Positions 1 to 22,826 of a stretch of 23,042 nucleotides of DNA are shown one piece after another. Made by a program: the position numbers and the translations under genes. The stretch is taken from IMG/VR virus record IMGVR_UViG_3300027996_000177, positions 1 through 23,042 of that record. One strand, 5' to 3'. The notes beneath the pieces were generated by a model. That model was not told where the DNA came from. It did not search any database and worked only from the letters and a program-made list of their open reading frames with translations. How positions within the stretch are numbered: position 1 is the stretch's first letter; every line of letters begins with the position of its first letter. This DNA comes from a virus.

Positions 1-895
1 CAGGATTCATTTGTGAACCATTTAAGAATGTTGACGTATCTTGATTAACTAATTCCCCATTAACATAACAACTTAAATTATTAGTAACCAATTCTCCCAC
101 ATCTGTAATAGTAATTAAATTCCATTCCTTTGGTTCGTTACTCACCCTATCTGTAGTAAATGTACCCCTATCAATTGAATCCCCTATCGTCATTCCATAG
201 TTATTACCTATACCAAAACCCCATCTCATCTGACTAGACGTACCACTCCTCCAAAATAGATATGCATCATCTGCAGGTGTAGAACCACCTATAGTATCAC
301 CAGATAATTTAACGATAACCTGTTCATTATCTGGAGATGAACCACCACCAATAGGGTTAATAGTTTCCGCAACTGCTTTTGTTATTGTCCCACCTGAACC
401 TATAGTAACCTCAAAAGAAGGTAAATTTAAAGATGTTTGTCCTGTAGTTGTACCACTCCAGTTTTCACCAATAACACCTGTATAAGTTCCTGGTGTGTAT
501 GTTGTTGCAGTCAATGATGGTATTTTTAGAAATCTATCATTACCACCACCAAAAAACATAACACCACCGCCACCTGTTGTTCCTGATTTAACCCAAGCTG
601 AAAACGTGAACGTTTTTGGTTTGTATCTATAAAAAGGTTGTTGTTCTTGAATTAACTCCGAAGAAGAAGTCGGAAATAAAATGAAATCATCCGTACCATC
701 AAAAGTTATGTATTTATAATCGTTAGAAACTTCTGGTTCGTTTGTGAAAGTACCCTCAAAATTATAAGAACTAGTTATATCAACTATAGTACCACCACTT
801 AAACCTTCAGACCTATCTCTAGATTTAAAATTAAATGAATCAGTATAAAATACTAAACCTTCTGTTATTATTTTTGGTGAATAATTAAAACTCAT
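1..895 (-). CDS. LamG/concanavalin-A-like lectin-fold tail protein, C-terminus cut by window edge
   Basis: Partial gene. I translated it directly: ATG at 895-893 (minus strand), then 298 codons open to the window edge without a stop. The visible protein resembles LamG-type (laminin G/concanavalin A-like jellyroll) domains found in phage fibres and adhesins. Near residues 13-19 is GLVFYTD, near 61-72 is the strand KYITFDGTDDFI, near 95-103 is TFTFSAWVK, and near 258-283 is a W-N-L-I-T-I strand followed by CYVNGELV. These are the usual landmarks of the family, in the usual order. A Gly/Thr-rich insert lies near 104-190. The start follows the stop of the 317-residue gene by only 3 bases, so the two are probably co-transcribed. 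Likely role, inferred from context: carbohydrate or surface binding at the tail periphery. An enzyme with the same fold cannot be excluded because the C-terminus is missing. Confidence 0.72.
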   Translation of the reverse strand, partial: MSFNYSPKIITEGLVFYTDSFNFKSRDRSEGLSGGTIVDITSSYNFEGTFTNEPEVSNDYKYITFDGTDDFILFPTSSSELIQEQQPFYRYKPKTFTFSAWVKSGTTGGGGVMFFGGGNDRFLKIPSLTATTYTPGTYTGVIGENWSGTTTGQTSLNLPSFEVTIGSGGTITKAVAETINPIGGGSSPDNEQVIVKLSGDTIGGSTPADDAYLFWRSGTSSQMRWGFGIGNNYGMTIGDSIDRGTFTTDRVSNEPKEWNLITITDVGELVTNNLSCYVNGELVNQDTSTFLNGSQMNP

Positions 896-898
896 AAT

Positions 899-1852
899 TT
901 ATATACTTCTAACAATTGTTTTTACTTCCCACCCAGTAGTTGTTGCAGATACTTGCAATAAAGCATTAGTACTATCTGCAGACATAGTAAATGTTATCCC
1001 TGATGTTGTTCCAATGTCACTTGTTGGTACATTATTGAATTCAACAGTATTACCACTAAATATAGATATGATATTTCCTGCTCTCGCACCTACTGTATTT
1101 GTAACCGTATAATCAAAGAACGCACCCGTATATGCACTCATCGGTAAAGAATACACTGTAGACAATCCAGTTCCAGGATTTAATTTAACTGTCGTATTAA
1201 GTGATGGTGCTTGATAACTACCCATATGAATAGTATCGTCATCAAATACTTCTAATATCGGTAATCCTGAAATATCATTAACCGCAAACAAAGAACCTGT
1301 TAAGTCATCAGTAATACTGAATAACTCACCACTAGAACCTTGTACCGTAAATAGTGGTTCTGTATTGCCAGAACCTATAATTGTTAATACGTTTTGTCCA
1401 CTTCCTGATAATTTTGTTTGTCCAACAACATTTAACGTAACAGTAGTTGCAGTAGTCCCAATACCAACGTTTCCACCATTTTCAACTAAATATACATTAT
1501 TTAATCCTGAAGGTTCAATGTGTAATGGTGAACAACCATATAAGTTTGTCACATATAAATCTGTTATACAGTCTCCTGATGTATTTCCTGTAAATGTAGG
1601 TAAGTTTAAGTAAGTTGTCGCACTTATTGTATTCGCACTTAACCCATTTGTAAAAATTGTTGGTCCAGTTACTGTACCACCAGTAAAGGTTCCACCGCCA
1701 CCACCAATAACATCACTTATTTGTTGTATAGTTGCCTTATATGATGACCCTACACTACTCTGAGAAGTATCTCCTGTTATTACAATATGAACTAAATCTG
1801 TAAGTGTAACACCACTCGCTAATTGTCTATCTGTTAATTTTTGTTTTGACAT
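899..1852 (-). CDS. Fibre-like tail protein with beta-rich repeats (317 aa)
   Basis: Probable tail fibre or fibre-tip protein. Residues 1-50 are a compact, non-repetitive head (LTDRQLASGVTLTDLVHIV then SSYKATIQQISDVIG) of the kind used to anchor phage fibres. Residues 50-85 are a Gly/Thr-rich linker. NVGIGTT at 128-134 is a motif often seen in phage fibre shafts upstream of beta-helical or chaperone domains. Residues 167-200 carry short repeats of hydrophobic pairs spaced by turns (LFTV, LFSI, LFAV, ILEV), suggesting a narrow beta-helix. The last 75 residues form a separate beta-rich C-terminal domain ending in VKTIVRSI. No S74-type self-cleaving chaperone is visible at the C-terminus. It lies 35 bases after the giant 2823-aa gene and 3 bases before the LamG-like gene. 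The fibre role is inferred from composition and position; the receptor is unknown. Confidence 0.7.
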   Translation of the reverse strand: MSKQKLTDRQLASGVTLTDLVHIVITGDTSQSSVGSSYKATIQQISDVIGGGGGTFTGGTVTGPTIFTNGLSANTISATTYLNLPTFTGNTSGDCITDLYVTNLYGCSPLHIEPSGLNNVYLVENGGNVGIGTTATTVTLNVVGQTKLSGSGQNVLTIIGSGNTEPLFTVQGSSGELFSITDDLTGSLFAVNDISGLPILEVFDDDTIHMGSYQAPSLNTTVKLNPGTGLSTVYSLPMSAYTGAFFDYTVTNTVGARAGNIISIFSGNTVEFNNVPTSDIGTTSGITFTMSADSTNALLQVSATTTGWEVKTIVRSI

Positions 1853-1887: not shown

Positions 1888-4800
1888 TTATTCATCACAA
1901 TTATGTATCAGTTCTTTATTATAAAAATCTCCCCCAACGTCCCAATCATCATCTCCTGTAATTATTACATTACCTTCATATTCATTACTATCATATATTT
2001 GAGTTATGAATATTGTGTTATATTCACTAAGTAACGTATTTGACTTTCTTATACATTTGGTGTATTTGTCTCTAAGTCCCGCAATAAAGTTTCTTTGTGT
2101 TTCATAAGCAGTAGTACCTTGAGTAAATCCAGATAATGCATTTTGTGCATTTACTAAGTTTTGTGTTATACCACTACAACTCATAAAATTCATAGTATAA
2201 TTTTGTTGTTGTTCTATATACTCATTCTCTAAATTTTCTAACTCAGTTTTTAAATCTAACAGTTGTTGATTTAGTGTTACAAAATCACTATTTAATAAAT
2301 CTATTTGATTTTGTTTTTTATCGATTAAAGTTTGTAAATTTGGGGTACTTAAATCTTTTAATTTTATAGAACATAAAATACTATTCTCTTTTTGTATTTC
2401 TTTCTTAAGTAATGCAATCTGAACTTCTTTTTCCCTTATTTCTTTTTTCTTATCTGTAATTTGTGGACTACTAGGGTAAATAGGTTTTTGTTCTACTAAA
2501 CTATATTTGTCTTCAGAACCAATACTAAAATCTGTCTGACCACTTAAAGAACAATTTTCAGTAGAAATAAAATTCAAACTATACTTTTTATAATTAAATT
2601 TATTATTATCAAATATTGTATTTCTATAAATTTTACCTGAATTATCACAACCTTCCCATATTGTAGTAGCAGGAACAACTTGTTCAATTAAATCTAACCA
2701 ATAGTCACCTATCTTATCCATAAACTCAAACATACTATTATACGTAAATTTACCAGATAAGTCTTCACCACAATTACTAGCGTTTAGGTATAGTTCATAA
2801 AATAATCTTAATAATGGGTAATCACTAATAGTCTGTCTACTTTTAACATCAATTAAATTAGTTTGTACTAATTGATCAAAAACCGCTTTAATATTTATTT
2901 CTGATGGTTGTATATCTAAATAATCTAACGGATTAACACAAACACTATATGTATCACCAGTTTCAAAACCATTCTCACATTCTTTTTTACTACCACAATA
3001 TTCACAATCACCTTTACAATTTGCACAATCGTCAATAGTTCTCCAATGACATATTTCTAAATCTTCATCCCACACATAGTTTTTACCTAAACCTAAACCT
3101 TCAATACCTTCACCATTTAATAACGTATTTAAAGATTTACAACATTCAGACGTAATACTATCTGTCTGATTAAACGTTTGTGCAGTGACACCACTAATAA
3201 CTTCTTCTAAAGTACCACCAGTATATATTGAGGTTCCTGTATATAAATAAGACTCAAAGAAACCAATCGTACCATCACCTTTTTCAACGATTAGTCCGAA
3301 TAAATTATTTAATGTGTTATTATTATTAATGACTAACGTATCTGAACCACAATTATTTTTTTGTATGAAGAAGTTCGATAGTGTTTGTCCTTTTTCTAAT
3401 AATTGATAATAATTAGCGTCTAATGAGGTGTTATAATTAGAAGTTAACGTATAGTATTCATTTTTCAATTCTATAACTTGTGTCTGTAATATATCTGTAT
3501 ATGTTTCACAACTAAATGTTAATCCAGATGTGGAGTTACCATCTAAAGTTAAAACATAACTATCTAATGTTGTAGATGTGTATGTGACATCACCACTAAA
3601 TTTTATCTGTAATAAAGATGATTGATCTTGAAATATAAAATCTTCAGAACCCATAAATAAATAATCTTCTGAAGATTCAAAAATATAATTATCAGTTTCA
3701 CAATTAGTAGGACAATTATCACAATCAATATTTTTCCAGTAATTAAATACATCACATTCTATTGCCTTCGCAGGATCTATACTAAATGAAGTATTTTTAA
3801 CGTTAAGTATTAAATCAGAATGATTAATATTATAATCCGTATATCTGTATTCTAAATCTAACCAAAGTCTTTCTTCTTCTTCACCTAATCTAACAATATC
3901 ATAATTAGACGTTGATCCAGTATTACATTCACCGTTAGGGTAAACTGTTTCTGTTATTACACCATCATCATAATAAACCCACGATTTTTTATTATCTATA
4001 ACACAACTTAGTTGTGGTATCATACAATCATTTATAGATAAAAGTCTTTGTGTTTGACAATCTGCAACATTAACTTGTATATTATCAACTAATAAACATA
4101 ATTGACACTCAATATTTTCTAATTCTATAGAGAAGAAAAATTCTTTATTAGGGTATAATCTCCTTAAATCGTCACAAACACATTCAGGTATCGTAAAGTT
4201 AAAAGTTTGCCAAGATGGTTCGAACATATCTGCATTGTATGTCACACCTAATTGTGATAAGTGATTAAATATACCATCTTCTATTGTTGCAATCTCTTGT
4301 TCGTCACCTTCTAATATAACACCAGTGTATCCACTTGTTGGATCCCATTCCCATATAGGGTTTATACTTTCAGTATATGGTAAGTAACTTAACCCTGTAT
4401 CAATGTTAGTCTGAGTATCTTCATTTGTATTATTAACAAATATTTTAAAGTTGACTTTTAAATCGTCTAAATAACTATCATAATAAGTATTATTTACCTC
4501 TTCAAATTCTACATAATTATTATATAAACTATTATACCATACATCATAACACTCATTAGTTTTTTGTTCTATAGTAGGGATTGAAGTTTGTAATGTTTCT
4601 AAAAGATTTTGTAATTCTGTAACATTTACTAAATCACAACAATTAATAGGTTCTATACTTTCATCATCTACTATTACAGAAGATAATATACATTCCCTAG
4701 TTTCGCTATTAAATACATATTGTCCTGGAATTGAAATCACACTCTGTGTACAACATTCTTCAGGTATATTTGCACCGTTATAAAGAATTGCACCACCTGT

Positions 4801-7800
4801 TGTCTGTTGAAATAAAGAAGGATTAGGATAATCACAAATAGGTGTATTATTATTAGATCCACCAGAAGGTGTGGTAACAGGGTCTTTGTCTGGGTCAGCT
4901 TCAGGTAATGGGGGTGGTGTATTATTAGAACTACCGCCCGAAGGTGTGGTAACAGGATCTTTGTCTGGGTCAACTTGTGAAGATCCAGTGTTTGTATTAG
5001 GGTTATGAACTACTCTTGTCGCAGTACAACAACCCTTTTCGTAAATGTTTGTACCACCTCCACCTGCAAGTGTCCAATCACTACTATACCACGAACTACA
5101 TAACGTAGTAGGGTTATTTGGGTCATTAATATTAATAATATATTTATAGTAATCGGTAGGACTACTACTATCAAACACTATAAATTCATCGCCAATATCA
5201 TATATACACCCACTTACTGGTCCACCACCTCCACCATCTTTTATCCCACCAGCACCAATTGCTGACATAACAATACCTGTAGTTTCAGGATCAATATAAC
5301 CTTTTAAGGTTGAGTATAAGCCTAATAACCCAACACCCCAACTTAATAGAGTACTTCCTAAATTATTTTGTTCATTTTTAGTATCTGTAAAAGACTGACT
5401 TTGTTTTAATAAATTTTCAGATAATAATGCTTTTTGTTCTTGTAATTGACTATTTAACTCATTTATCTGTGAAGTATTTTTTACATACTCAATATTTAAA
5501 GTAATTTTTTGACTATCAGTTAAAGTTAAATTACCAGATTCATCTGTTATTGATTCGGTAGTAGTTTTTAACAACTCTGCAGTTCTATTTATAGTGTTTT
5601 GTATGTCGTTGTTTTGTATTGTAGAATTTTGTTTTGACTCATCATAACTAATACTGTTATTATAATCAGTAGTTAATGTGTTTATATTTACATTGATTTC
5701 ATTGATTTGCTTCTCCAAAGTAGCAACTAACTCAACATTATTTTCAAATATAGCATTTTTTAATTGTACTTCTAAACTATTTTTTGTTCTACAATCTTCT
5801 AATAATTGTGAATATAAAACTTGTTCGTTTTGATTTTCTAATGTTTTAGTAGAAACACAACTATTATATTCTGTTTGTTTAGTACCATCATTAGTATTAG
5901 GGTTACCATATACTATTGTGTTACAATATGTGTTATAATTAAAGTTTCTTAATTCTGTTAATTGGGTTTCATATACTGTACAATCTAATGGGTTCTCCAC
6001 ATTTGTTATTGCTTTTTCTATTACAATATTATCTGAAGATTTTAACTGAATATCACCTTCTATTTGAGAGATTACACTTTTGATTTCTACTTCCACAACT
6101 TTTAATTTATCTAGTTCATCTTCTAGTTGTGTACCTAAAGCATTAAATTCTTGTATGTTCGCAATTTTTGTCTCATTTGTTGGTGTTGTTGTAGTGTTAC
6201 TATCACCACCTACAGTACTACCATCACAACCTAATGCCGAATATTGATTAATAATAGTTTTTATACTTTCTTCTAAAGTTTTATAATCAGTCAATAACTT
6301 AGACCATATACCACATTCTAAAGGCATTTCTAAATTACATATATTTTGTGTGTTAATATAATTAGTATATTCTATGTCACAAGATGGGTATAATAATGTT
6401 AAATTAAAACAACCCGCAATAAGTGACTCTACTTCGGATTTGATTGTTTTATAATTTTCTATATAAGTTACAATTTCTGAAGTATTAAAATTTAATGATG
6501 TTAATAACTCTGTTGTTGGTGTAAATAATTGATTGTATGTTTCATTAATTTGAGAAACCCATATCTGATTTGTTGTTGCCCATTGACTAACTGACACTAC
6601 ATTACCACCAATGGCATTACAACATTCTGTATTTGGTTCTAATACATTAGTATTATTCCATATCACATATTCATCACCAACATTCTCACTATCATTAAAG
6701 TTATTTTGTAAAATTTGAGATTCTTCTTCCGTATTTGTAAACGCAACAAAGTTTAGACAATTTACATTATTTATTGTATTATCATAAATAATTGCTGGTT
6801 GACATGATACGTTATCTGCACACTCTATTAAGTTATTCGCACTATATTTTAACATATAGTCAAAAGAAAAATCTATAGTACAACTACAATCTTCTAATTC
6901 TGGCAATTTAAAACCTTGCCAATTTTCACTACCAAAAACAACGGAAACATTATCTACATCCGCACATTTAATTCTTTCTGGGTCAACTGCCGAACTGAAA
7001 ACAGTATTAGGTGTAACACTATAAGGGTTATTACCTTCAAACGGTATTAATAACCCACTATTAACATCAATAGTAAAATAACCAAACGTATATCCATAAA
7101 ATTCTGCAACTGACTGATATAAATCACTAACTTGTTCATCACTATGCCAATCTAAAATGTAATTATTATCAAATATTGATGGTGTGAAAGAAACTCTTCC
7201 ATATTCATCTATGGTAAAAACTACCCAATTAGACGGATCCATAAGTGAAGGATCATCTAATATTGCGTTAGGTTGTGCAACAATATTATTATTAGTGTTA
7301 ACTACTTCTTTTATTATTCTAGACTCAGTAAAACAATCCCAAAAAATTTCAGTAGAATAATAATTATATACACCACCTATAGGGTTTTGTAAATCATAGT
7401 AGGATGTATTAACCGTTGTATCAATTATTGGGACAATGTATGTACCATCACTAAGACTACCTTGTATAGTAAATTCTGGAGTTGCAAGCTGATTACCTTT
7501 TAAACACGCTATATATTCATTTGTACCATCATTTACTATAGTAAAATCAAATCCGTGCCAAGCACAACACTCAGGACTACTAATGATTGTTGTAGAATTA
7601 CAATCTACTTCTTCAAAATATAACCCAAAATTAGAAGGGTTTTCGATATTCCCTAATAAATATAGTTCTAAATATTCTACTATACCATAACCTGTTGCAT
7701 TAATAAAACTTTGTTGACTTAATACTTCCCCACCAGGGACTTTAGCGTATTTGTATTGAAAACATTTACCTTTTACTTGATAGATATTGTTTGGTAATGT

Positions 7801-10359
7801 ATTATTTACCATATCAAATACAACAATACCGTTAGGCTCAACATCTATCGGTATTCCAACACAAGGTGCTTTACCACTACAATATTCTGTAAGTCTACCA
7901 TATTCATTTATATATGAAACATACCTAGCATCATTTTTAGAACAACATTCAGGAAATTCATCAAAACTAACTTTAATCCCATCTTCATTAGTGTAATAAT
8001 AAAATGGTAAACATTCATTTAAAGTTAAATCGTCACAACTATAGATAACACTTTCTTCTTCTATATCATTTAAACAAATCTCTAAAGTGTTATTAGTATC
8101 ACAATCTTGTGTTGATACTTCAGTTAAACAATTTTTTAAAGATACTTCATAATTATTTTTAATTACTTGCCACTCTGGTGAATATATCAGATATTTATCT
8201 TTTTTTATTTTCTCTAAAAATTCATTATATTCTGATTCCGCACTTGCAAATGCTTGTTGTAATGTTGTTTTACCGTCATTCTGTAATGGCGTTTCTACAA
8301 TAGAATAATTAACATCTAAACAATTACCTATGGGTTGGTACTCACCATTATTTTCATTATAAGTTAATTGTGTCGTATAAAAAGTTGTTCCCGTAGGTAT
8401 TCCATTAAATATCCCATAATTATAATTAATAAAGTAGTTTTGTTGTAAGGTTTGTGCAGTTACAACTACTGTTGGTTTACTATTAAAGTTAGGTACAAAA
8501 CACCTACTAAAATATTGTAAGTATTCACTTCCTCCATCATAAGGTCCAATATGTGGGTTATTACCATTTAACACTGTTACAGAATCATCTGTATATGTTT
8601 CCCTATACCATCCACCTGCTTTTTGAAAGTACATATCGGTGAAACCATTTTCTACAATCTCTCCTGTTTCAGGATTAATAAAATCATTAATAACTAAATC
8701 CCCATTAACTGGAGGTAATGGATAACCATTTTTATCGTATGGTATATTAGATAAATCTACTTCACCAGTATAGAGATATAATAATTTTTTAATTTCTTCA
8801 ATATCTAATGGTTTGTCTACTAAAACAACATACTCATTAAAATTAACTAAGGACTCAGGTGCACCTATAAATCTAAATAAAAATTCTATCGCCTTTCTAC
8901 TACCCTTACTTTTCCATAACCATGCAATGTTTAGTATTAATCTTCTATACAATTCAATATCTATCTGATTTTGTGTTAAATTAGTAGAAGTGCCACTAAA
9001 TTGTCCCCCTCCATTACTAGGTAAATATAATTTTGAGAAAGATGTATCATTAATGAAATTAATAGGATCTAAACCTAACATATACGATAAGTCTTTAACT
9101 AACTCATCAGGTGTATTATTCTTTTTATCATATGTTACAATGTGTGCAAATTTAATACCATTAATATATTTTTTAACATAGTCAAATTCAACACCATAAA
9201 TTCTTAATAGTTTTGTAGCCTTTTCACCATTTAAAGTTAAATCGTCACCATCCGTTCTAGGTATTGTATCAAAACTACTAATTGCTTCTGTAGTATATTT
9301 TCTAATTATAATATCTGTCTTTGATCCGTCTAAATCTTCCGCCAAATCATTTAACTTATCTATATAAGCAATATAAAAACTATTAAAGAAATTTAAGTTA
9401 TATCCATCATCTAATACTGGAAAATCTAAAACTTTTTTACTTGTTAAGGTGATACCATTATCAGTAATTTTAGATGCAATTATTTCTGCCCTATATTCTG
9501 GATAAATTTCTCTATTTAATAAATTATTCTGTAACTCATTTAACCCAGTGAAAAAACTCTCAAGTTCACTACCATTAGGTTTAATAAAATATGGTATAGA
9601 TGCATCAATAGTATCTGATAAAAACGAAAACTGAGGTATAAAGATACCTGTTAACTCAGGAAATGGATTCCCTTCCACAACTAAAGTTATTTCAGAATTA
9701 GTTTTTTGTGTTGCACCTGAAAAACCTTTTATATTTTTTACTATCCCATTATGTTCAATTACATATGAACCATATTTTAACATTAAGTTTCTTAATGGAT
9801 TATCTGTACTATCATCTGATACATACTTAGAATCTATAGTATACTTAATATTATATGGGTTTACAAAGAAATTACTATTAACTTTAAATGTTGATTCATC
9901 AGATTCAATATCATAAAGATAGTCTGTTATATTATCACCTGTAACACTCCCAACTTTGTTATCCACATAAATCGCTGCTGGCCAATCGTTTTGAATTTCA
10001 ATCAAAGACGAAGATAACATTTCTTTAAAAGAACCATACCAAACATAACTTAAAGGATTTGTTAAGTCTAAATTTAAATTTGCTTTAACATTTTTTTGTA
10101 TTTGTAACTGCGATTCAGAATCTACTATATCATCTAAAGTAAAAAATTTAGATCTATTACCTTGTGTAAATAAAATATCTGGTTTAGGGTCTAAATTAAC
10201 TGAAATTGAAAAATTACCATTAGTGAATAGTGTCGTCCCACCTTCACTTGTAAGTTGTAAACCTACTAAATCAGGACTAAAATCCCTATATTCAATGTTA
10301 TCATTGAAAAATATTCTTTTAGCGTAACCCGCAACCTTTATTCTATTATTTTCAGCCAT
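1888..10359 (-). CDS. Giant (2823 aa) tail protein with N-terminal gpI/gp7-like domain and Cys-rich, coiled-coil middle
   Basis: Very large probable baseplate/tail protein. Residues about 380-505 contain a recognisable P2 gpI-like (gp7-like wedge) signature: LSYMLGLDPINF, then YRRLILNIAWLWKSKGSRKA and IEFLFRFIGAP (about 471-501), followed by KAGGWYRET near 580 and NPHIGPYDGG near 601. Residues about 700-2500 are unlike any family I can name. They contain repeated ECC modules, two Cys-flanked jellyroll-like stretches, Gln/Asn-rich coiled coils (about 1400-1440, 1500-1570, 1630-1660), a hydrophobic stretch (about 1667-1705) before poly-Gly, and a Pro-rich tandem repeat (about 1796-1839). Residues about 2536-2567 (FTYNSMFEFMDKIG...PATTIW) look like another conserved structural domain, and about 2634-2720 is a strong Lys/Glu/Leu coiled coil. 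ATG starts 7 bases after the 300-aa gene. It probably connects the baseplate ring to fibres; that role is inferred from the gpI/gp7-like part only. Confidence 0.72.
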   Translation of the reverse strand: MAENNRIKVAGYAKRIFFNDNIEYRDFSPDLVGLQLTSEGGTTLFTNGNFSISVNLDPKPDILFTQGNRSKFFTLDDIVDSESQLQIQKNVKANLNLDLTNPLSYVWYGSFKEMLSSSLIEIQNDWPAAIYVDNKVGSVTGDNITDYLYDIESDESTFKVNSNFFVNPYNIKYTIDSKYVSDDSTDNPLRNLMLKYGSYVIEHNGIVKNIKGFSGATQKTNSEITLVVEGNPFPELTGIFIPQFSFLSDTIDASIPYFIKPNGSELESFFTGLNELQNNLLNREIYPEYRAEIIASKITDNGITLTSKKVLDFPVLDDGYNLNFFNSFYIAYIDKLNDLAEDLDGSKTDIIIRKYTTEAISSFDTIPRTDGDDLTLNGEKATKLLRIYGVEFDYVKKYINGIKFAHIVTYDKKNNTPDELVKDLSYMLGLDPINFINDTSFSKLYLPSNGGGQFSGTSTNLTQNQIDIELYRRLILNIAWLWKSKGSRKAIEFLFRFIGAPESLVNFNEYVVLVDKPLDIEEIKKLLYLYTGEVDLSNIPYDKNGYPLPPVNGDLVINDFINPETGEIVENGFTDMYFQKAGGWYRETYTDDSVTVLNGNNPHIGPYDGGSEYLQYFSRCFVPNFNSKPTVVVTAQTLQQNYFINYNYGIFNGIPTGTTFYTTQLTYNENNGEYQPIGNCLDVNYSIVETPLQNDGKTTLQQAFASAESEYNEFLEKIKKDKYLIYSPEWQVIKNNYEVSLKNCLTEVSTQDCDTNNTLEICLNDIEEESVIYSCDDLTLNECLPFYYYTNEDGIKVSFDEFPECCSKNDARYVSYINEYGRLTEYCSGKAPCVGIPIDVEPNGIVVFDMVNNTLPNNIYQVKGKCFQYKYAKVPGGEVLSQQSFINATGYGIVEYLELYLLGNIENPSNFGLYFEEVDCNSTTIISSPECCAWHGFDFTIVNDGTNEYIACLKGNQLATPEFTIQGSLSDGTYIVPIIDTTVNTSYYDLQNPIGGVYNYYSTEIFWDCFTESRIIKEVVNTNNNIVAQPNAILDDPSLMDPSNWVVFTIDEYGRVSFTPSIFDNNYILDWHSDEQVSDLYQSVAEFYGYTFGYFTIDVNSGLLIPFEGNNPYSVTPNTVFSSAVDPERIKCADVDNVSVVFGSENWQGFKLPELEDCSCTIDFSFDYMLKYSANNLIECADNVSCQPAIIYDNTINNVNCLNFVAFTNTEEESQILQNNFNDSENVGDEYVIWNNTNVLEPNTECCNAIGGNVVSVSQWATTNQIWVSQINETYNQLFTPTTELLTSLNFNTSEIVTYIENYKTIKSEVESLIAGCFNLTLLYPSCDIEYTNYINTQNICNLEMPLECGIWSKLLTDYKTLEESIKTIINQYSALGCDGSTVGGDSNTTTTPTNETKIANIQEFNALGTQLEDELDKLKVVEVEIKSVISQIEGDIQLKSSDNIVIEKAITNVENPLDCTVYETQLTELRNFNYNTYCNTIVYGNPNTNDGTKQTEYNSCVSTKTLENQNEQVLYSQLLEDCRTKNSLEVQLKNAIFENNVELVATLEKQINEINVNINTLTTDYNNSISYDESKQNSTIQNNDIQNTINRTAELLKTTTESITDESGNLTLTDSQKITLNIEYVKNTSQINELNSQLQEQKALLSENLLKQSQSFTDTKNEQNNLGSTLLSWGVGLLGLYSTLKGYIDPETTGIVMSAIGAGGIKDGGGGGPVSGCIYDIGDEFIVFDSSSPTDYYKYIININDPNNPTTLCSSWYSSDWTLAGGGGTNIYEKGCCTATRVVHNPNTNTGSSQVDPDKDPVTTPSGGSSNNTPPPLPEADPDKDPVTTPSGGSNNNTPICDYPNPSLFQQTTGGAILYNGANIPEECCTQSVISIPGQYVFNSETRECILSSVIVDDESIEPINCCDLVNVTELQNLLETLQTSIPTIEQKTNECYDVWYNSLYNNYVEFEEVNNTYYDSYLDDLKVNFKIFVNNTNEDTQTNIDTGLSYLPYTESINPIWEWDPTSGYTGVILEGDEQEIATIEDGIFNHLSQLGVTYNADMFEPSWQTFNFTIPECVCDDLRRLYPNKEFFFSIELENIECQLCLLVDNIQVNVADCQTQRLLSINDCMIPQLSCVIDNKKSWVYYDDGVITETVYPNGECNTGSTSNYDIVRLGEEEERLWLDLEYRYTDYNINHSDLILNVKNTSFSIDPAKAIECDVFNYWKNIDCDNCPTNCETDNYIFESSEDYLFMGSEDFIFQDQSSLLQIKFSGDVTYTSTTLDSYVLTLDGNSTSGLTFSCETYTDILQTQVIELKNEYYTLTSNYNTSLDANYYQLLEKGQTLSNFFIQKNNCGSDTLVINNNNTLNNLFGLIVEKGDGTIGFFESYLYTGTSIYTGGTLEEVISGVTAQTFNQTDSITSECCKSLNTLLNGEGIEGLGLGKNYVWDEDLEICHWRTIDDCANCKGDCEYCGSKKECENGFETGDTYSVCVNPLDYLDIQPSEINIKAVFDQLVQTNLIDVKSRQTISDYPLLRLFYELYLNASNCGEDLSGKFTYNSMFEFMDKIGDYWLDLIEQVVPATTIWEGCDNSGKIYRNTIFDNNKFNYKKYSLNFISTENCSLSGQTDFSIGSEDKYSLVEQKPIYPSSPQITDKKKEIREKEVQIALLKKEIQKENSILCSIKLKDLSTPNLQTLIDKKQNQIDLLNSDFVTLNQQLLDLKTELENLENEYIEQQQNYTMNFMSCSGITQNLVNAQNALSGFTQGTTAYETQRNFIAGLRDKYTKCIRKSNTLLSEYNTIFITQIYDSNEYEGNVIITGDDDWDVGGDFYNKELIHNCDE
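4841..4972 (-). repeat. In-frame 75-base tandem repeat (25-aa Pro/Asp linker) within the giant tail gene
   Basis: Two copies of a 57-base segment lie at 4841-4897 and 4916-4972, with a period of 75 bases and 8 mismatches by hand comparison. On the coding strand each encodes DPDKDPVTTPSGGS followed by an Asn/Thr run; the copies are separated by PPPLPEA. The period is a multiple of three, so the frame is kept. The unit is acidic, Pro/Thr/Ser/Gly-rich and free of Cys, typical of a flexible spacer. It separates the GCC motif near residue 1776 from the ECC module at 1868. Confidence 0.85.
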
Positions 10360-10366
10360 TTACGTT

Positions 10367-11269
10367 TTATATATTAGTTATGTCATCAAAATCTTTAGTT
10401 GGGTCAATAGTGAACTTCTGTTCTCTAACCTCAAATAATGGTTTACCAGTAAACTGATCTTTAATCTCATATAAGTTATATTGTCTGTATATTTGATTAC
10501 CAAAATTGTATATAGTATAAATACCATCTTCTAAAGATTTTGTTTGGTTTGAGAATAATGCATATGCTAAAGTTTCATCATCAAACTCAACCATCTCTAT
10601 TTCTAACATAACAGGATCGAAAAACGTATTAGTTATAATAACATCTTGTTGTGGGTTACCAATAAAGGGTACCGCATTAGGTTTAATAGATGGTGCAGAT
10701 GAAGGTGTGACAGTACAAAACACACTGGTTGAGTTGTCATTAAAAGTATACGCTACCGAAGCATTAGAATTACCTTGGCTCTGTGTAATAGGTAATGCTC
10801 TATTATTAGATGTTATAATTCTAAATAAATTTTGTATTTTATCTTGCCCTGTACCTGACTGATCTTTTAAATATTCAACTCTATAACCTACTAAATTACC
10901 ATTTTCAAATCTATTTTGTAAATCTGTGGGTACCTGATTGATGTCAAAAACAATACCTTTTACATCCTGATTATCAATTAAAACACTACAATCTTGTATT
11001 TTAGCTCTTATTTGTTTAGGTCTTATAATAATATTATAAAACCCTTTGGTACCAAATATCTGTGTTGGTAATTTTAATGTATATAAACCACCGAATATTT
11101 CAGTAGTGTTATTAGGGTTATTTGCTGGTATCAAAACTTCTGTAGGATCTAAAGATATTAGTTCTACATCTGCTAAAGATTCTCTATTAGGTGTATAACT
11201 GTAAAACATCTCTACATCCTGTACCGATACATCTGCTGGTCTTATTGTTCCGTAATTTCCTGTTGCCAT
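10367..11269 (-). CDS. Unrecognised virion-associated protein (300 aa)
   Basis: I do not recognise a named family. The protein is soluble, without a signal peptide or membrane segment. It begins MATGNYGTIRPADVSVQDVE, then has a beta-rich region with the strand pair GGLYTLKLPTQIFG and GFYNIIIRPKQIRAKIQDCS near residues 80-115, and a hydrophobic VKGIVFDINQV strand near 123-133. The C-terminal part (about 225-300) is again beta-rich and charged (YNLYEIKDQFTGKPLFEVRE). It lies 10 bases after the 291-aa gene and 7 bases before the 2823-aa gene, so it is part of the same transcription unit. Position between baseplate wedge genes and fibre genes suggests a baseplate or tail-decoration subunit. The start is ATG with an A-rich upstream stretch (nine A on the coding strand) and no Shine-Dalgarno. 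Confidence 0.6.
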   Translation of the reverse strand: MATGNYGTIRPADVSVQDVEMFYSYTPNRESLADVELISLDPTEVLIPANNPNNTTEIFGGLYTLKLPTQIFGTKGFYNIIIRPKQIRAKIQDCSVLIDNQDVKGIVFDINQVPTDLQNRFENGNLVGYRVEYLKDQSGTGQDKIQNLFRIITSNNRALPITQSQGNSNASVAYTFNDNSTSVFCTVTPSSAPSIKPNAVPFIGNPQQDVIITNTFFDPVMLEIEMVEFDDETLAYALFSNQTKSLEDGIYTIYNFGNQIYRQYNLYEIKDQFTGKPLFEVREQKFTIDPTKDFDDITNI

Positions 11270-11279
11270 AACTTTTTTT

Positions 11280-12155
11280 TTAAATTCTTATAAATCCACC
11301 TCTATTTGTGTCAATATCGTTAGTTGTTTTTATTTCTGATAATAATGAATGTCTTTCAAATATATCAGCAACACCTCTATTAATAAATACTACACTATCA
11401 ACTTCTGGTTTAAAAACTACACCTAAATACTCTTCTTTTTTTATTGAAGCATTTAACGATGTATTATATGTATTCCACCCACTATTTAATACTTTGAAAA
11501 CTGTAGTGTTATAAGACCTATTAAAACCAAACTCATCTATAGTCTTAGTAATTAAATTTTTATATGTTGTATACTCGATACCTGTAGTTGTTATATTATC
11601 AACATTGGCGTTTATTTTATATATAATTCTATCACTATTTTCAGATAAAACACCACTAAATTCTTCTTTAGGGTTGTTAGAAGTATTTAGATTTGGGGCA
11701 TAAATATCATCTCCATTACTATTTTTTCTATATGACTTAACTTGTCTTAACAAACTATCGTCAGTATTACCCGTAACTTGTAGCGTATTAGAATAATAAA
11801 AGTTTGGTGGTGCACCCGCCAATCTACCATAACTAAATGAATTAAAGTTATTAGGTTTTTCTGTTAACTGAGTATCTTTTGGTGTGTATTCATTATCTGT
11901 AAATATACCCATATCATCTAAGTTTTGTGTTAGATAAAGGTTTATGTCTATTGTATTTACTATTTTCTGCCCTGAACTATCTAAAATAATATTACCTTCT
12001 TCGTCTATTTTAAAATTAGGTATAGTACCATAATAATACTTAGAACTATCAGTATCTATAACTGTCTTACCTTCAGAGTTTTTTTTCAATACACTCTTAG
12101 GTATGTTTCTAACCGTATAGTTTTCTAAATTTCTTTTTTTACTTATGTATTTCAT
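11280..12155 (-). CDS. Unrecognised virion-associated protein (291 aa)
   Basis: No family recognised. The N-terminus is strongly basic (MKYISKKRNLENYTVRNIPKSVLKKN), then the protein becomes Asn/Thr/Tyr-rich with alternating short hydrophobic strands, a composition shared with the flanking 293- and 300-aa proteins. A Tyr-rich patch occurs near residues 108-122 (FSYGRLAGAPPNFYYSN). The last third contains VVFKPEVDSVVFINRG and ends GGFIRI. It has no cysteine that I can find, unlike the giant proteins on either side of this block. It is 14 bases after the 293-aa gene and 10 bases before the 300-aa gene. Similar sizes of 293, 291 and 300 residues hint at a set of baseplate parts, but I see no clear sequence similarity between them. 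A structural role is inferred from location only. Confidence 0.58.
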   Translation of the reverse strand: MKYISKKRNLENYTVRNIPKSVLKKNSEGKTVIDTDSSKYYYGTIPNFKIDEEGNIILDSSGQKIVNTIDINLYLTQNLDDMGIFTDNEYTPKDTQLTEKPNNFNSFSYGRLAGAPPNFYYSNTLQVTGNTDDSLLRQVKSYRKNSNGDDIYAPNLNTSNNPKEEFSGVLSENSDRIIYKINANVDNITTTGIEYTTYKNLITKTIDEFGFNRSYNTTVFKVLNSGWNTYNTSLNASIKKEEYLGVVFKPEVDSVVFINRGVADIFERHSLLSEIKTTNDIDTNRGGFIRI

Positions 12156-12169
12156 ACTATATAATTATT

Positions 12170-13051
12170 TTAAAATGTGGTTTGCCAAAAAGTTAATGTT
12201 GGTATTCCACCATTGGTGGGGTTTAAGTTAACCCCTAAAGGTATATTTAATTGTCTATCATTAGGTGTAAATTTATATTTGTACACACCATTATCATTTT
12301 TCAAAATTATTTTTAAATACGTTAATCCATTTTCCCCTTCTAAATCGGAAAGTGTTAATTCATTAGTATTAAAATCTTTAGATGGTGCCATTTGATAAAC
12401 CTTACCATTTAAAGCGTTATTAAATTGTACAACACCATAAACCTCATATTCTTGGTTTGGTGCGTTATCTACTAAATCTTGAAACCAATAAATCTGATAA
12501 CCTTCATGTACTTCTTCTGGTTGTGTTACTGGATCACCAATAGTAAATGTTATTGGACAAGCACTTATTGGTAAAGTAAAACCAAATTCATTTTCTTGTT
12601 CAGTACCCACTTGCGTATAAATGTCTGAAAATGTTAGTAATTCATTAGACCCACTATTAGGATTATCATATATTGAAAACCTAATAAAACTATTTGTAAA
12701 CCTATTAGTTCTACAAAAAATATCATCAAAAGTAAATTGTATGTCACCATATAATCCTGGTACTGCACCCAACCCCCTATGAAATGGTGAACCCTGAAGT
12801 GTTTGGGGTGTATAAAAATTTAAATTTATTTTATATCTATCAATAATATCCCAATTATTGTTTGCTGGTTTAAATATTACTTTCTTATAATCTACTATTG
12901 GATTTATAGAATTTTCTACCTCATCTTTTACAAATTTATCTTCAATTAATTCTGCATTATCCACAGGGAAAAAATTAGATTTAAGTGTAATGTTTATGGT
13001 TGTACCACTACTTAAATTATCTAACAGTATTTTTCTTCTATCAACATTCAT
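12170..13051 (-). CDS. Unrecognised virion-associated protein (293 aa)
   Basis: No family recognised. It opens with a short charged helix (MNVDRRKILLDNLSS) followed by beta-rich sequence. A distinctive central part (about residues 84-150) contains PQTLQGSPFHRGLGAVPGLY and DIQFTFDDIFCRTNRFTNSF, and later IYWFQDLVDN near 188. The C-terminus ends in aromatic and Thr residues (LTFWQTTF), as expected for a folded beta domain whose end packs in the structure. Its ATG (13051-13049) overlaps the end of the 744-aa gene by 11 bases, the only overlap in the window, which suggests translational coupling and fixes the start. A baseplate or tail-peripheral structural role is inferred from context. Confidence 0.6.
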   Translation of the reverse strand: MNVDRRKILLDNLSSGTTINITLKSNFFPVDNAELIEDKFVKDEVENSINPIVDYKKVIFKPANNNWDIIDRYKINLNFYTPQTLQGSPFHRGLGAVPGLYGDIQFTFDDIFCRTNRFTNSFIRFSIYDNPNSGSNELLTFSDIYTQVGTEQENEFGFTLPISACPITFTIGDPVTQPEEVHEGYQIYWFQDLVDNAPNQEYEVYGVVQFNNALNGKVYQMAPSKDFNTNELTLSDLEGENGLTYLKIILKNDNGVYKYKFTPNDRQLNIPLGVNLNPTNGGIPTLTFWQTTF

Positions 13052-15275
13052 CGTCTATCTGATTTTGGTTTAATAATGATAAATCTACACAACCTCCAGC
13101 CACATCTCTTTTACCTAATTCATACTCACCTTCAAAATCTACAAGTGTCACCTCAACATTTAAATTCGCAGCACCATTGTAATTTAATACGTCCACTACA
13201 TTTGAAACCCCAGAACCTAATGTAAATACAACTGGCTCCCAAGCAGAAACACTACTATCCCATCTATAATATCCTGTTGTATCATTAATAGATGTGTTAA
13301 AGACATTATTGAAAACTTGTTGTAGTATTGAAGCATCCGTACCCGCATTTGCGTTATATATTATTTGTCCATCTAATAAAGGATTAATAAATGAAGGTTG
13401 TTCATCAAAAGAATCTAAATCTACTTTTGGTATGTTTATACTATACTTTAGATATGTTGGTGATTTTAATAACTCTATAAATTTATTTTTATTTTCATTA
13501 TTTGTATCTGAAGAACCTAAAACCAATAACTCAGATATTATGCGATACTCACAAGGTGGATCTTGTCTTTGGAAATAAAATCTTTTATCTAAATAAATAT
13601 AATGTGCACCACTCTCAAATGGATAATCTACACCACTACCAGTTACATCTGTTTCACCAATATCCATTAAATCTCTCCATTTATAAATATTGTTTGATAT
13701 TTGATTTCCTGTTGTGATACCATTAACCACATTACCTAATCTCGCGTAATTAGGTACACCGTAAGCTTTAATTAAATTTTCTATATCTTGTGGGTTAGTT
13801 ATATTGAATTCATCTATTTTAGATTGTATATCCACTATTGGGTTTATCGTATTTCTAAACTCCCTTATCTTTATTAAATTAAAAGGTGAGTATATATAAC
13901 CCTCTTTTTTATTGTCTAATTCAGGTTTAATACTATTTAAATATTCTCTATAAATTGTATTTACTCTGTGGTAAACATTTTCTAAAGGTCTTTCTAATAA
14001 TTCGTTTTCGTTATACTCTACAATGTCACCATCAAATATTTCATCTGATTCATCAATATTTAAAAAGTATGTTGATGGTACATAGGTTTCATCACCAAAA
14101 GAACGTATATTATAATTAACTTCTGTGTTGTTTTCTAAATCATATCCCGCAGAAATAGGTGTCCAAAATCTCGTATTTAAAGTACTAGATAATCCAGAAA
14201 CTGAATTTATCCAATATTGTGAGTTTGGTGTTGTAGGGTCAGAATCGTTATCGTTTTTAATAATCCCTAAATATAACTCAGTTATCGGTCTCCCTAAATT
14301 ATCTACGATATCACTTACATCTATATCTGTTTTAAAATTAAACGCTGCGACATCATCGTTATAACTAGTCACACCATAAGCAGCAGGATAAAAATCATAG
14401 TTTTGATAATCAAAAGTTAAAGACTTAAATTGTCTAACATAGTATTGTGATTCTTTATCTCTTACCACTCTTTTTATTGTTGATACCCCTATAGTAAAAG
14501 ATAAGTCCGAAGAATTAATTTCAACAATAAAAGTCCTTAATTTGTCACTATTAGTTTGATTACCCGTTCTGTAAACTCTATAAAATTGTTCATTTAATTT
14601 TAAAGTGTTGGGAACAGTTAAATCTTGAAAGTTAATTAATTTCACCCTATCACCATCTGATAAACCATGATTCATAGGTGTTCTAAAACCAACGTATTGA
14701 ATTCCGTTTAATTCTACACCAAACTGATCTATAATAGGAATACCATCTTTTAATGAAATACCATTATTATTTTTAACTAAAGTAATATCTTTATTATTAA
14801 ATGGATATAAAATTTTTAATAAGTAGTTTTGTTTACCATCACTATCTAACATCCTAAGTCTATCATATCCAGGATCAAAAGGTGAAAAATTACATAATGC
14901 ACTTTCATTATCATTAAATTGTAAAGCATCTTCGTCTGGTTCGTCATTATAAAATCCTACCCACCCATCTTTCTCAAATATATTAGAACTTAATATGTCT
15001 TTAGTTTTAATATCATTATTTTCACCAAAATAAATTTTTACATTTTCGTTAAATAATGGATTACTTATAACTGGTTTGACTACACCATAAAATCTATATA
15101 TACTACTATCTTTTCTTTCTTTTAGAAATTGTTCGTATTGACTTACAGTTGTATCAATATCATTTAAAGGTAGAGGTTTATTTTTGTTTTCTAACGCAAA
15201 CTGAAATTGTGTTGTGGTATTCACATTGTTAGGTAACTTTACACTATTTAATAATATTTTATTTGTATTTTCCAC
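13041..15275 (-). CDS. Large unrecognised probable baseplate protein (744 aa), GTG start
   Basis: No named family recognised. The start is GTG at 15275-15273: the codon before it is ATA, preceded by an in-frame TAG, and the next in-frame Met is more than 100 residues into the protein. The sequence is soluble and mostly beta-rich, with no signal peptide or membrane segment. A notable motif lies near residues 525-570: NIYKWRDLMDIGETD followed by GVDYPFESGAHYIYLDKRF, an aromatic cluster that looks like a conserved structural core. The protein ends GGCVDLSLLNQNQIDDEC and stops with TGA, overlapping the 293-aa gene. It follows the 1624-aa gene by 20 bases. Size and place in the cluster suit a peripheral baseplate wedge component, but I cannot match it to a particular T4 or P2 protein. 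Confidence 0.62.
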   Translation of the reverse strand: MENTNKILLNSVKLPNNVNTTTQFQFALENKNKPLPLNDIDTTVSQYEQFLKERKDSSIYRFYGVVKPVISNPLFNENVKIYFGENNDIKTKDILSSNIFEKDGWVGFYNDEPDEDALQFNDNESALCNFSPFDPGYDRLRMLDSDGKQNYLLKILYPFNNKDITLVKNNNGISLKDGIPIIDQFGVELNGIQYVGFRTPMNHGLSDGDRVKLINFQDLTVPNTLKLNEQFYRVYRTGNQTNSDKLRTFIVEINSSDLSFTIGVSTIKRVVRDKESQYYVRQFKSLTFDYQNYDFYPAAYGVTSYNDDVAAFNFKTDIDVSDIVDNLGRPITELYLGIIKNDNDSDPTTPNSQYWINSVSGLSSTLNTRFWTPISAGYDLENNTEVNYNIRSFGDETYVPSTYFLNIDESDEIFDGDIVEYNENELLERPLENVYHRVNTIYREYLNSIKPELDNKKEGYIYSPFNLIKIREFRNTINPIVDIQSKIDEFNITNPQDIENLIKAYGVPNYARLGNVVNGITTGNQISNNIYKWRDLMDIGETDVTGSGVDYPFESGAHYIYLDKRFYFQRQDPPCEYRIISELLVLGSSDTNNENKNKFIELLKSPTYLKYSINIPKVDLDSFDEQPSFINPLLDGQIIYNANAGTDASILQQVFNNVFNTSINDTTGYYRWDSSVSAWEPVVFTLGSGVSNVVDVLNYNGAANLNVEVTLVDFEGEYELGKRDVAGGCVDLSLLNQNQIDDEC

Positions 15276-20609: not shown

Positions 20610-22439
20610 TTATGAAGTGGAAATTGTCACTTTTATATCTTTATTTGGGTATTTAATTTCAAACATTGCATTAGGTTCACCAAACAATGTATACCTACCC
20701 AATAAATCTATTTGTCTTGTTTCGTCATCAATATATGGTTGTGCAACTTCATTTAATGAATATTTACCATTTTCATTAACTTTGTTAAAAACCCTTAAAT
20801 CTGTAACATTTAAAACTCCACCTACATTATTGATGTTCTCAACCAATTGTGAAATATAAATGTTATCACCCATATCCCATTTATTGATATCTAAATATTC
20901 TTTTACTTGATTAATTACCCCACTAATCACCTGCCCTTTAGGTACTGATTTCTCTGAGAACACATCAATCTCAAAACCTAAATTTAACACTCTACCATTT
21001 TTAATGGTTACATAATCATTTAACATTCTATAGTCTGCCAAATATTCTGCAATATTTTGTTTCAACGCAGATGTCGCTTGTGTAGTTAAATTACCATTTT
21101 CGTCTAAAGCTAATATAGAAACATTAACCTTATTTCTTTCTTCCCAAACACCTGTTCTAAAAGGTACCCCAAATTGTCCAGGCATTAGTGGTACTCTACT
21201 TTGGTAATCTTTTATTGTTACACATCTGTTTTGTGCAGAAAAATTATATCTAACTAAGTTCCTAATTTCATCTACAGATGGTTGTTCTTTACCACCCAAC
21301 GCTGGAATAGGGTTATTAACACTAATACTTTGACCGATAATTCTATTGGTGTTTGAGTCATCACCATTTATTATAGGTGTTACTGTCCCTAAAGTTGTTA
21401 TAGTATTAGGTCCGATGTTAGTGTCTTCACCACCACCAACTCTATATCTTACATATAACGTATTATCTGTTTGAGGTATTTCACCTAAAGATAAATTATT
21501 AACTGTCTTACCTATTCTATCTATTTGTCCTTTACAACCAATAAACTCATTTAATTCTGACGTATCTTGATCACCCGCACCAAAAATAATTTTACAGAAA
21601 CCATTATCTGTATATTCACTAATAAATCTTTGTGGTGAATTTTTCCACTTACCAACAACTACACCCTCTCTATCTGATACACCATTATCGTCTACAATAT
21701 AAACCTGTGATTGTGCTAAAGCAGGTACTTCATACCAATTTAAATCAAAGTCCGAATATTCTTCCTCTGTTGGTTGATTAATAAAATTAGTACCTTCCTT
21801 AGTTATAATATTTTCTATAGATAGTACATTATTTTCTGGTAATATAACTTCTAAAAATGGTTTATAATCTGTTCTAGTTAATACTTTTTTGAATGTTTTT
21901 GTTATACCGTTTATCATTATCTCTCTTTTTGTAAGTGAGTAATTTTGTATTTTACCCCTACCATCTATATTTGGTATAATTAGTCTGTTAGGTATACCAC
22001 CAGTTGTAAATGGAGAAGAAAAATCACAATCTTCTAAAAGTTCAAATACTTTACCCGCACCTGTTGCTTGCGAACCTTTTAATATTTTAGGTGCATAACT
22101 TATATCAAAAGTTTCTCCTTTTAATGGTATATTAGTTACTGTCCAATCTACTATAGTAATACTAGGTCTTTTTCCTGGTATATTTAAACCAAAAGTTCTC
22201 GCCAATTCTAAAACTGATGACCTTTCTTGTGCGTAATTAATTTGTGTTTCGTTAAACATCCTATCGGTATGAAACGATAACATATCACCAACCGCAGCAT
22301 TTAGTTCTAACAACATCATACCAACAGAGGCATCGTTAAAATCTGAAAATGTTTCAGGATAATATTTTTGTATGAATTCTATCAGTTGTTGTCTTACATC
22401 TGCGAAATTTCTAGCGTTATAATCAATTTTTTTAACCAT
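20610..22439 (-). CDS. Baseplate wedge protein, gp6/baseplate-J family
   Basis: Forms the inner baseplate wedge ring with gp25 and gp7-type proteins in contractile tails. The N-terminus is characteristic of T4-like gp6: NFADVRQQLIEFIQKYYPET near residues 11-30, then DASVGMMLLELNAAVGDML, FHTDRMFNET and LELARTFGLNIPGKRPS near 36-93. The middle has CKIIFGAGDQD near 282-292 and YRVGGGEDTNIGP near 332-344, matching the glycine-rich loop of baseplate-J proteins. The conserved ring-forming part follows near 379-412: PALGGKEQPSVDEIRNLV, then NRCVTIKDY. At 609 residues it is close to T4 gp6 (about 660) and shorter than the gp6 homologues of extracellular injection systems. It begins 3 bases after the gp25-like gene, the classic adjacent gp25-gp6 (W-J) pair, so the two are almost certainly co-translated. 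Confidence 0.92.
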   Translation of the reverse strand: MVKKIDYNARNFADVRQQLIEFIQKYYPETFSDFNDASVGMMLLELNAAVGDMLSFHTDRMFNETQINYAQERSSVLELARTFGLNIPGKRPSITIVDWTVTNIPLKGETFDISYAPKILKGSQATGAGKVFELLEDCDFSSPFTTGGIPNRLIIPNIDGRGKIQNYSLTKREIMINGITKTFKKVLTRTDYKPFLEVILPENNVLSIENIITKEGTNFINQPTEEEYSDFDLNWYEVPALAQSQVYIVDDNGVSDREGVVVGKWKNSPQRFISEYTDNGFCKIIFGAGDQDTSELNEFIGCKGQIDRIGKTVNNLSLGEIPQTDNTLYVRYRVGGGEDTNIGPNTITTLGTVTPIINGDDSNTNRIIGQSISVNNPIPALGGKEQPSVDEIRNLVRYNFSAQNRCVTIKDYQSRVPLMPGQFGVPFRTGVWEERNKVNVSILALDENGNLTTQATSALKQNIAEYLADYRMLNDYVTIKNGRVLNLGFEIDVFSEKSVPKGQVISGVINQVKEYLDINKWDMGDNIYISQLVENINNVGGVLNVTDLRVFNKVNENGKYSLNEVAQPYIDDETRQIDLLGRYTLFGEPNAMFEIKYPNKDIKVTISTS

Positions 22440-22442
22440 ATC

Positions 22443-22826
22443 TTAAAAAGTTATTTGTAATGTATCAGTACTACTAAATGAATCTTCAGTAACAGTAAAA
22501 GTTAATTCTACTACAATAGATTCTTCTATTTCATTATTTTTAAACTCGATACTATTAATGATTACATTAGGGATATACGTTTTAATTGTTTCATTTAAGT
22601 TATCTCTAATCTCTTCATGTGTTATTGCATCGTTGGGTTCGAATATATATTTTTTTAAATCACTACCAAAATCAGGTAGGTATAACCTCTCACCTTTATT
22701 TGTTAATAAAAGATGTAGTAAATCAGCTCTTATTGCGTCCCTATCAGTTTGATTTAAATTTAAGTAGAAACCTTTGTCACTATCTTTAAAAGGAAAATCA
22801 ATATTTATATATCTAGTCTTTGCCAT
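22443..22826 (-). CDS. Baseplate wedge protein, gp25/GPW family
   Basis: Small lysozyme-like-fold protein that attaches the sheath-initiating end of the tail to the baseplate wedge. The family signature is clear near residues 46-64: ERLYLPDFGSDLKKYIFEP, with the conserved Glu-Arg, Pro-x-Phe-Gly and Phe-Glu-Pro positions. Before it is the helix RADLLHLLLTNKG, and after it EEIRDNLNETIKTYIPNVII, as usual for the family. The 127-residue length is typical (T4 gp25 is 132). The start is ATG at 22826-22824 with no Shine-Dalgarno; the upstream coding strand reads ATATTTATA about 6 bases before the start. The next gene, the gp6-like protein, follows after 3 bases. A bacterial secretion or injection system also uses this family, but the fibre-like genes downstream favour a phage. 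Confidence 0.93.
   Translation of the reverse strand: MAKTRYINIDFPFKDSDKGFYLNLNQTDRDAIRADLLHLLLTNKGERLYLPDFGSDLKKYIFEPNDAITHEEIRDNLNETIKTYIPNVIINSIEFKNNEIEESIVVELTFTVTEDSFSSTDTLQITF

Follow-up and report, generated by a model that had tools for sequence, protein, structure and literature searches.

A giant protein of probable gp7/gpI type in the baseplate cluster of an uncultivated T4-type phage, and its compact and split relatives

Among the closest described counterparts of the protein discussed here are wedge subunits of contractile-tail baseplates, e.g., P2 gpI (176 amino acids, aa; the Tail_P2_I family, PF09684), the gp7-type wedge subunit gp17 of XM1 (242 aa), T4 gp7 (1,032 aa), and AlgoCIS Alg12, a wedge protein whose gp7-like region has been termed a "hotspot for evolutionary re-engineering" with a part in fibre binding (PMC8894135); XM1 gp17 and Alg12 are likened to our protein by description. 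The gp7-like part of Alg12 is laterally exposed and contacts tail fibres (PMC8894135), and flexible parts of XM1 gp17, a gp7 homologue, are involved in spike binding (PMC10457771). The stretch of DNA analysed here (IMG/VR record IMGVR_UViG_3300027996_000177, positions 1 to 23,042; "the window" hereafter, 23,042 nucleotides in full) is a fragment of the genome of an uncultivated T4-type phage, and one gene on its minus strand (1888..10359), a single uninterrupted open frame of 2,823 aa, occupies 37% of it. An earlier reading of the letters alone (the original prediction) had recognized that one gene filled more than a third of the window, without giving its strand. T4 gp7 has less than half the length of this protein, which we consider, with a probability of about 0.6, to be a gp7/gpI-type wedge of a contractile T4-type tail in which some 2,000 inserted residues are exchanged modules that form an outer, adhesin-holding platform.

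A chimeric or mis-assembled open reading frame is an explanation with virtually no chance of being correct, and it can be ruled out by the 27 distinct, uninterrupted full-length homologues (2,518-3,106 aa) that are present in IMG/VR and drawn from many assemblies; in the first homologue set, identity was 41-74%. The sole hint of such an artefact comes from the relative L070, in which a one-base frameshift within the N-terminal domain (11366-11536) produces frames of 465 and 2,257 aa; it is probably a sequence error and not a genuine split, and the window gene itself gives no such sign.

The identification as a wedge subunit is founded on the N-terminal domain (residues 1-700; 8260..10359, minus strand, as are all features located by residue below), which by the identity profile, the long-form alignment (A1) and profile search is the most conserved large region, and which is present in compact, split and long relatives. 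Residues ~464-515 (8815..8970) hold the gpI/gp7 'KGT' motif (IELYRRLILNIAWLWKSKGSRKAIEFLFRFIGAPESLVNFNEYVV). In hhalign comparisons with ten sequences of the P2 gpI family, residues ~414-530 aligned with gpI, with scores of 45.5 (P 4.6e-5) for an alignment of compact plus long forms (A5) and 40.8 (P 1.1e-4) for A1; P ranged from 1.1e-4 to 6e-6 by alignment. The controls, i.e., twelve other alignments (unrelated ones from the window, and T4 gp7) and comparisons in opposite directions, scored no higher than 21.5, at P>=0.089. With both A5 and A1 the stretches IELYRRLILN..WLWKSKGSRKAIEFLFRFIG...FNEY were paired with KR..I..s...HR.KGT..AV......LG....EWFE of gpI, and the motifs LA..lG-D, RR..I.n, KGT..A......G and E were all brought into register. 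In addition, the proteins that occupy the gp7 slot of cyanophages matched T4 gp7 at the KGT motif in profile-profile comparison (score 59.4, P 1.8e-6), and matched the wedge family at the same motif (scores of 48.2 with A5 and 41.6, P 7e-5 and 2.8e-4; controls <=21.6), and thus bridge the two. The gene lies on the same strand, and in the same cluster, as genes for a gp6/gpJ-like baseplate wedge protein (609 aa; PHROG baseplate wedge, E 1.9e-21) and a gp25-like sheath initiator (127 aa; Pfam GPW_gp25, E 1.4e-13), found at 20610..22826 on the minus strand, and four of nine related contigs encode a gp23-type (T4-type) major capsid protein (PF07068, E 1.5e-37 to 3e-63). Based on the profile kinship, these neighbours and the capsid genes of related contigs, a gp7/gpI-type wedge subunit is the best reading of the sequence of the N-terminal domain, as had been proposed.

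The relatives come in three architectures. Compact relatives have a single gene of 797-1,019 aa (some, with a C-terminal extension, of 1,285-1,331 aa) in which the N-terminal domain, a DNKKSWV...AIECDV block and a PATTI...KF.Y block (window residues ~2124-2225 and 2495-2602) are contiguous. In the window protein the first of these ancestral blocks, C-alpha, spans residues 2122-2225 (DNKKSWV ... PAKAIECDVFN; 3685..3996), and the second, C-beta, which in compact forms stands close behind it, spans residues 2495-2602 (LIDVKSRQTISDYPLLRLFY ... WLDLIEQVVPATTIW ... NKFNYKKYSL; 2554..2877), with an identity of 0.81-0.84 among homologues and an independent E-value (i-E) of 3.5e-26 to split C genes. 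In split relatives, a sister clade, the N gene (mostly 873-1,003 aa) precedes, collinearly, one or more separate adjacent genes with the C-blocks, and in several cases a gene of Cys-Cys boxes stands between the two. A small split C gene can be laid piecewise along the window protein (65-113 on 1132-1178, weakly; 160-285 on 2001-2129; 293-350 on 2166-2222; 374-480 on 2495-2602; and 525-558 on 2778-2811, weakly), a collinearity from which it follows that the long form has roughly 780, 250 and 130 extra residues at three joints. A midpoint-rooted tree of the N-terminal domain groups the long forms in a single clade (support 100); the split clade is its sister, and the compact forms branch outside both. 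Since compact relatives hold the conserved parts contiguously and the long form is one clade, the sequences support the view, already taken in the original prediction, that accessory sequence was inserted between ancestral parts of a wedge protein. A compact ancestor, and a compact-to-long direction, is likely, unproven in that the root was placed by midpoint; the long form may have arisen by fusion, or the split form by fission.

The last residues form a C-terminal cap (2750-2823; 1891..2112). In the L058-L067 subclade, e.g., in L058, L153 and L125-L131, the cap is detached: the last ~80 wedge residues stand at the end of a distinct gene of 200-276 aa that lies downstream. L153 (QCKH01000004.1), a long-form wedge gene of this subclade, is on an 83.8-kb contig filed as a Prochlorococcus single-cell genome; the filing may reflect a phage inside the sorted cell and is no proof of host.

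Several results weigh against the wedge reading. The similarity to gpI falls below the Pfam cut-off, with PF09684 below threshold or without a match in the window and eight related records, so the kinship anticipated with Tail_P2_I was borne out by profile-profile alignment and not by the curated model. Sequence searches of Pfam, PHROG and the PDB, with the whole gene and with three sub-alignments, returned no substantial match, and the hhalign probabilities are moderate (57-69%). Direct comparisons of the family with T4 gp7 reached a non-significant P of 0.04-0.05, the best pairing of A5 being on the KGT-type motif of gp7. Several genes separate the gp6-like gene from the wedge gene, unlike the direct adjacency seen in T4. 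AlphaFold2 models of the compact relative L138 and a split C gene were mediocre (predicted local distance difference test, pLDDT, 62-63; predicted template-modelling score 0.38-0.42), and Foldseek against the PDB matched no fold with confidence, the L138 model retrieving nothing convincing. The sequence matches that did appear, to an oxidoreductase (E 2.6e-4), to influenza haemagglutinin and to coiled coils, seem attributable to chance or to composition. The empty direct family searches are what would be expected of a large tail-fibre or adhesin fusion without a wedge role, in which the KGT similarity is incidental, and the length and the Cys and linker content are like those of giant virion adhesins, but no other large part is as conserved as the KGT-containing domain, which occurs with the C-blocks in compact proteins of 797-1,019 aa; together with the gp25/gp6 context and the kinship to gpI and gp7 seen in profile comparisons whose controls were clean, this makes such a fusion very improbable.

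Conservation was taken as mean pairwise identity among non-redundant homologues. It is about 0.6-0.87 across residues 1-650 (0.73-0.83 at 401-550), drops to 0.2-0.5 for the greater part of 850-1950, where it recovers in part, to a moderate level, at 1050-1250, rises to 0.53-0.71 over 1951-2250, where a third strongly conserved block is found (1990-2225), and after a dip peaks at 0.81-0.84 at 2501-2600, before ending at about 0.7 over 2751-2823. The two places singled out in the original prediction, a signature near residues 380-505 and a second domain near 2536-2567, therefore coincide with conservation peaks, the second being best delimited as 2495-2602. Its picture of about 2,000 unplaced residues between conserved ends was too simple: the blocks at 1990-2225 and, moderately conserved, 1050-1250 lie inside, and residues 2750-2823 are conserved as well. 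Lengths vary among homologues at ~860-1050, 1640-1950, 2225-2500 and 2600-2750, so the forecast that variation would be confined to 700-2500 was close. The homologues are not of uniform length with a conserved middle, nor is profile similarity to gpI/gp7 lacking.

Three hypervariable regions (HV) can be delimited: HV1 (residues 850-1050; 7210..7812), of identity 0.31-0.43 and varying length, with a Cys-Cys box (CC at 931, and another at 805 just before the region); HV2 (1300-1950; 4510..6462, from the identity profile and homologue alignment), with a helical stretch, Gly/Pro/Thr linkers and Cys modules; and HV3 (2226-2490; 2890..3684), which measures 246-685 aa in long relatives but corresponds to about 24 positions of the small split C-gene profile. 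Between near-identical phages, most differences are concentrated in cassettes at ~800-1000, 1350-1950 and 2225-2490. For example, L002 and L004 are 99-100% identical over 0-700, 93% over 1200-1300, 95-96% over 1800-2000 and 96-99% over 2300-2500, versus 46% over 800-900, 55% over 1600-1700 and 66% over 2100-2300. Between L012 and L016, otherwise nearly identical, synonymous divergence (dS) is 0.25-0.27 at 800-1000 versus 0-0.05 nearly everywhere else, which indicates recombinational import of an HV1 cassette, not point selection. These comparisons show, at the level of sequence, that modules of the insert are exchanged by recombination. In L004 the long gene is present as two frames (1,396 and 1,452 aa; 14188-14191), with the interruption inside the hypervariable region, at a place where it does not align with L002, to which it is near-identical elsewhere.

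No positive selection was found in the variable regions, the ratio of nonsynonymous to synonymous divergence (dN/dS) being below 1 in bins with enough changes. This would suit an insert that is structural and not host-facing, one that adds an outer layer or cage to a large baseplate, or reinforces it, and that varies through relaxed constraint. Double-layered baseplates are known in other phages, as is a spike cage in AlgoCIS, and the insert is rich in helical stretches and in linkers of low complexity. We regard this explanation as unlikely, however, given that the variation takes the form of discrete cassettes between near-identical phages, not only diffuse drift, and that one module tracks adjacent adhesin genes.

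In the wedge-and-platform reading that we prefer, residues 1 to ~700 and the blocks at 2122-2225 and 2495-2602 are, as comparison shows, the wedge core common to the compact relatives of ~800-1,000 aa, and the ~2,000 further residues fill sites between and after the core blocks as recombining modules, a chain tolerated in pieces, as the sister clade encodes it in separate adjacent genes. The insert would most likely form an exposed rim or outer platform for the adhesins whose genes follow directly, a suggestion made by analogy with solved gp7-like subunits, to which tail fibres or spikes attach at the edge of the baseplate; the insert may also touch surface glycans via a domain resembling a carbohydrate-binding module (CBM). 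We infer that the insert may be a receptor-binding, host-range surface; the recombining variability, the weak CBM fold match and the adhesin linkage are consistent with a role in host range, and do not distinguish among direct receptor binding, adhesin docking and a structural role.

The contents of the insert are varied. All 75 Cys residues of the protein occur from residue ~600 on, which agrees with the Cys-rich modules noted originally, and recurrent Cys-Cys boxes, e.g., at 916-947 (i-E 2e-5), match repeats that split relatives carry in a separate gene. The coiled coils of the original prediction are now placed at a variable, coiled-coil-like stretch (residues 2612-2744; 2128..2526) backed by weak profile matches to many coiled coils in the PDB. 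Its hydrophobic stretch could be located, at 1667-1685, with a mean hydropathy of 1.22, low for a membrane helix; of the 16 rows that align at this place, just three have it, namely the window, L001 and L004. The CBM-like domain would be a beta-sandwich in two parts: residues 1132-1178 (6826..6966), possibly its first part, match positions 65-113 of the split C-gene profile weakly, a match that recurs at the corresponding place in most long homologues, and residues 2001-2110 (4030..4359; ending ..LCLLVDNIQVNV) form its main part, the profile of small split C genes matching 2001-2129 at i-E 4.4e-9. The AlphaFold2 model of the homologous split-gene domain is a beta-sandwich with pLDDT mostly 70-91, and its Foldseek neighbours include CBM16, CBM4, CBM28 and lectins (probability up to 0.98, E 0.003-0.07), those to CBM16/CBM4 having mostly a probability of 0.92-0.98, E 0.01-0.07 and template-modelling (TM) scores, normalized by target, of 0.41-0.48. 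Foldseek matches in BFVD were mostly unnamed uncultured-phage proteins. Carbohydrate binding by the modelled sandwich is thus a suggestive possibility. A stronger version would have the insert itself as the receptor-binding protein, with the sandwich as ligand site and the downstream adhesins optional, and both the CBM16/CBM4/lectin-like matches and the many relatives that keep the insert without an adhesin of this family directly downstream speak for it. We find it somewhat less credible still than a structural insert: the E-values and low TM-scores of the matches count against it, and the sandwich belongs to the better-conserved portions of the protein (identity 0.53-0.71 over 2001-2150), the opposite of a changing receptor site.

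Directly downstream of the wedge gene is an adhesin-family gene (899..1852, minus strand) whose product begins with a conserved N-terminal anchor of ~55 aa, identified by comparison among relatives; the same anchor heads genes directly or closely behind wedge genes in long, split and compact relatives. The C-terminal parts of the family are exchangeable, e.g., YadA heads with Peptidase_G2 in L109, and in L004 a DUF285 gene is next. The gene that follows in the window (2-895), truncated, is laminin-G/concanavalin-like (PF13385, E 4.5e-7). A small Cys/Tyr/Trp module of the insert (residues 1717-1784; 5008..5211) is confined to relatives whose wedge gene is directly followed by an adhesin gene; it is present at 6 of 7 long-form loci with an adjacent adhesin and 0 of 21 without (Fisher P 1.9e-5, kinship ignored). 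From these sequences, docking of the adjacent adhesin by this module is a tentative proposal. Arguing against it are L123, in which an adhesin gene is adjacent and the module absent, the L017 contig, in which an anchor gene is elsewhere and the module absent, the small number of independent pairs on the tree (3, well supported, to 5, with L123 labelled adhesin-less; too few for significance), and the divergence of the module, which follows the wedge domain and not the adhesin anchor. With two exceptions, few pairs and this divergence, docking stays a lead. The wider scheme, in which gain or loss of the cassette at ~1717-1784 accompanies that of the neighbouring adhesin gene, and host range shifts via paired swaps of socket and adhesin on a platform existing in compact, fused-giant and split forms, is doubtful to a slightly greater degree.

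Four unnamed proteins (300, 291, 293 and 744 aa; 10367..15275, minus strand) are encoded upstream of the wedge gene, in an order kept in long and split relatives; they had no convincing match to a family model and are likely further baseplate subunits. Beyond them (15296-20170) is a Cys-rich protein of 1,624 aa without a family match, a second length-variable giant in the baseplate cluster, with relatives of about 944-1,776 aa in long and split phages.

The compact, split and fused-giant forms make up a natural series of one baseplate wedge protein, from phages unrepresented in the annotated collection searched. This series reveals the sites at which a contractile-tail wedge accepts insertions and those at which cassettes swap. 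If the link between module and adhesin were true, it would help to account for the way in which phages, tailocins and injection systems exchange host-binding parts on a contractile machine that itself stays fixed.

Giant proteins in this position have precedents. By record coordinates, the gp7-slot proteins of cyanophages measure 3,048 aa in S-PM2, 3,274 in Syn1, 3,884 in S-CAM9, 4,225 in ACG-2014f, 4,458 in MED4-213, 5,195 in P-SSM2 and 6,603 in P-RSM4, and novelty as implied by comparison with P2 gpI and T4 gp7 only was overstated. Their annotations include gp7 T4-GC 107 (P-SSM2), T4-GC 826 (S-PM2p081 and Syn1_094), T4-GC 643 (P-RSM4) and "baseplate wedge initiator" (S-CAM9 and ACG-2014f). 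The KGT motif of these proteins (L224, 3073-12219, and L225-L230) is held in common with T4 gp7 by profile comparison, in contrast to a pelagiphage study in which T4 gp7 was considered absent from cyanomyophages and pelagimyophages, seemingly replaced by VrlC (PMC7029224). Like the window protein they are giant, with a KGT motif in most and profile-profile similarity to the wedge family there. A tblastn search of the annotated phage collection with the window protein and two compact relatives gave no match, so that similarity to the cyanophage proteins does not extend over the whole length, and what is new here is a family absent from that collection and a modular expansion that is differently placed. 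The cyanophage genes come directly after the gp6 gene, and the KGT motif is near residue 200 in S-PM2, Syn1, S-CAM9, ACG-2014f and MED4-213 (~700 in P-RSM4) versus ~483 in the window protein. The extra sequence of the cyanophage proteins is nearly all after the motif, whereas the window protein has conserved C-terminal blocks behind its insert.
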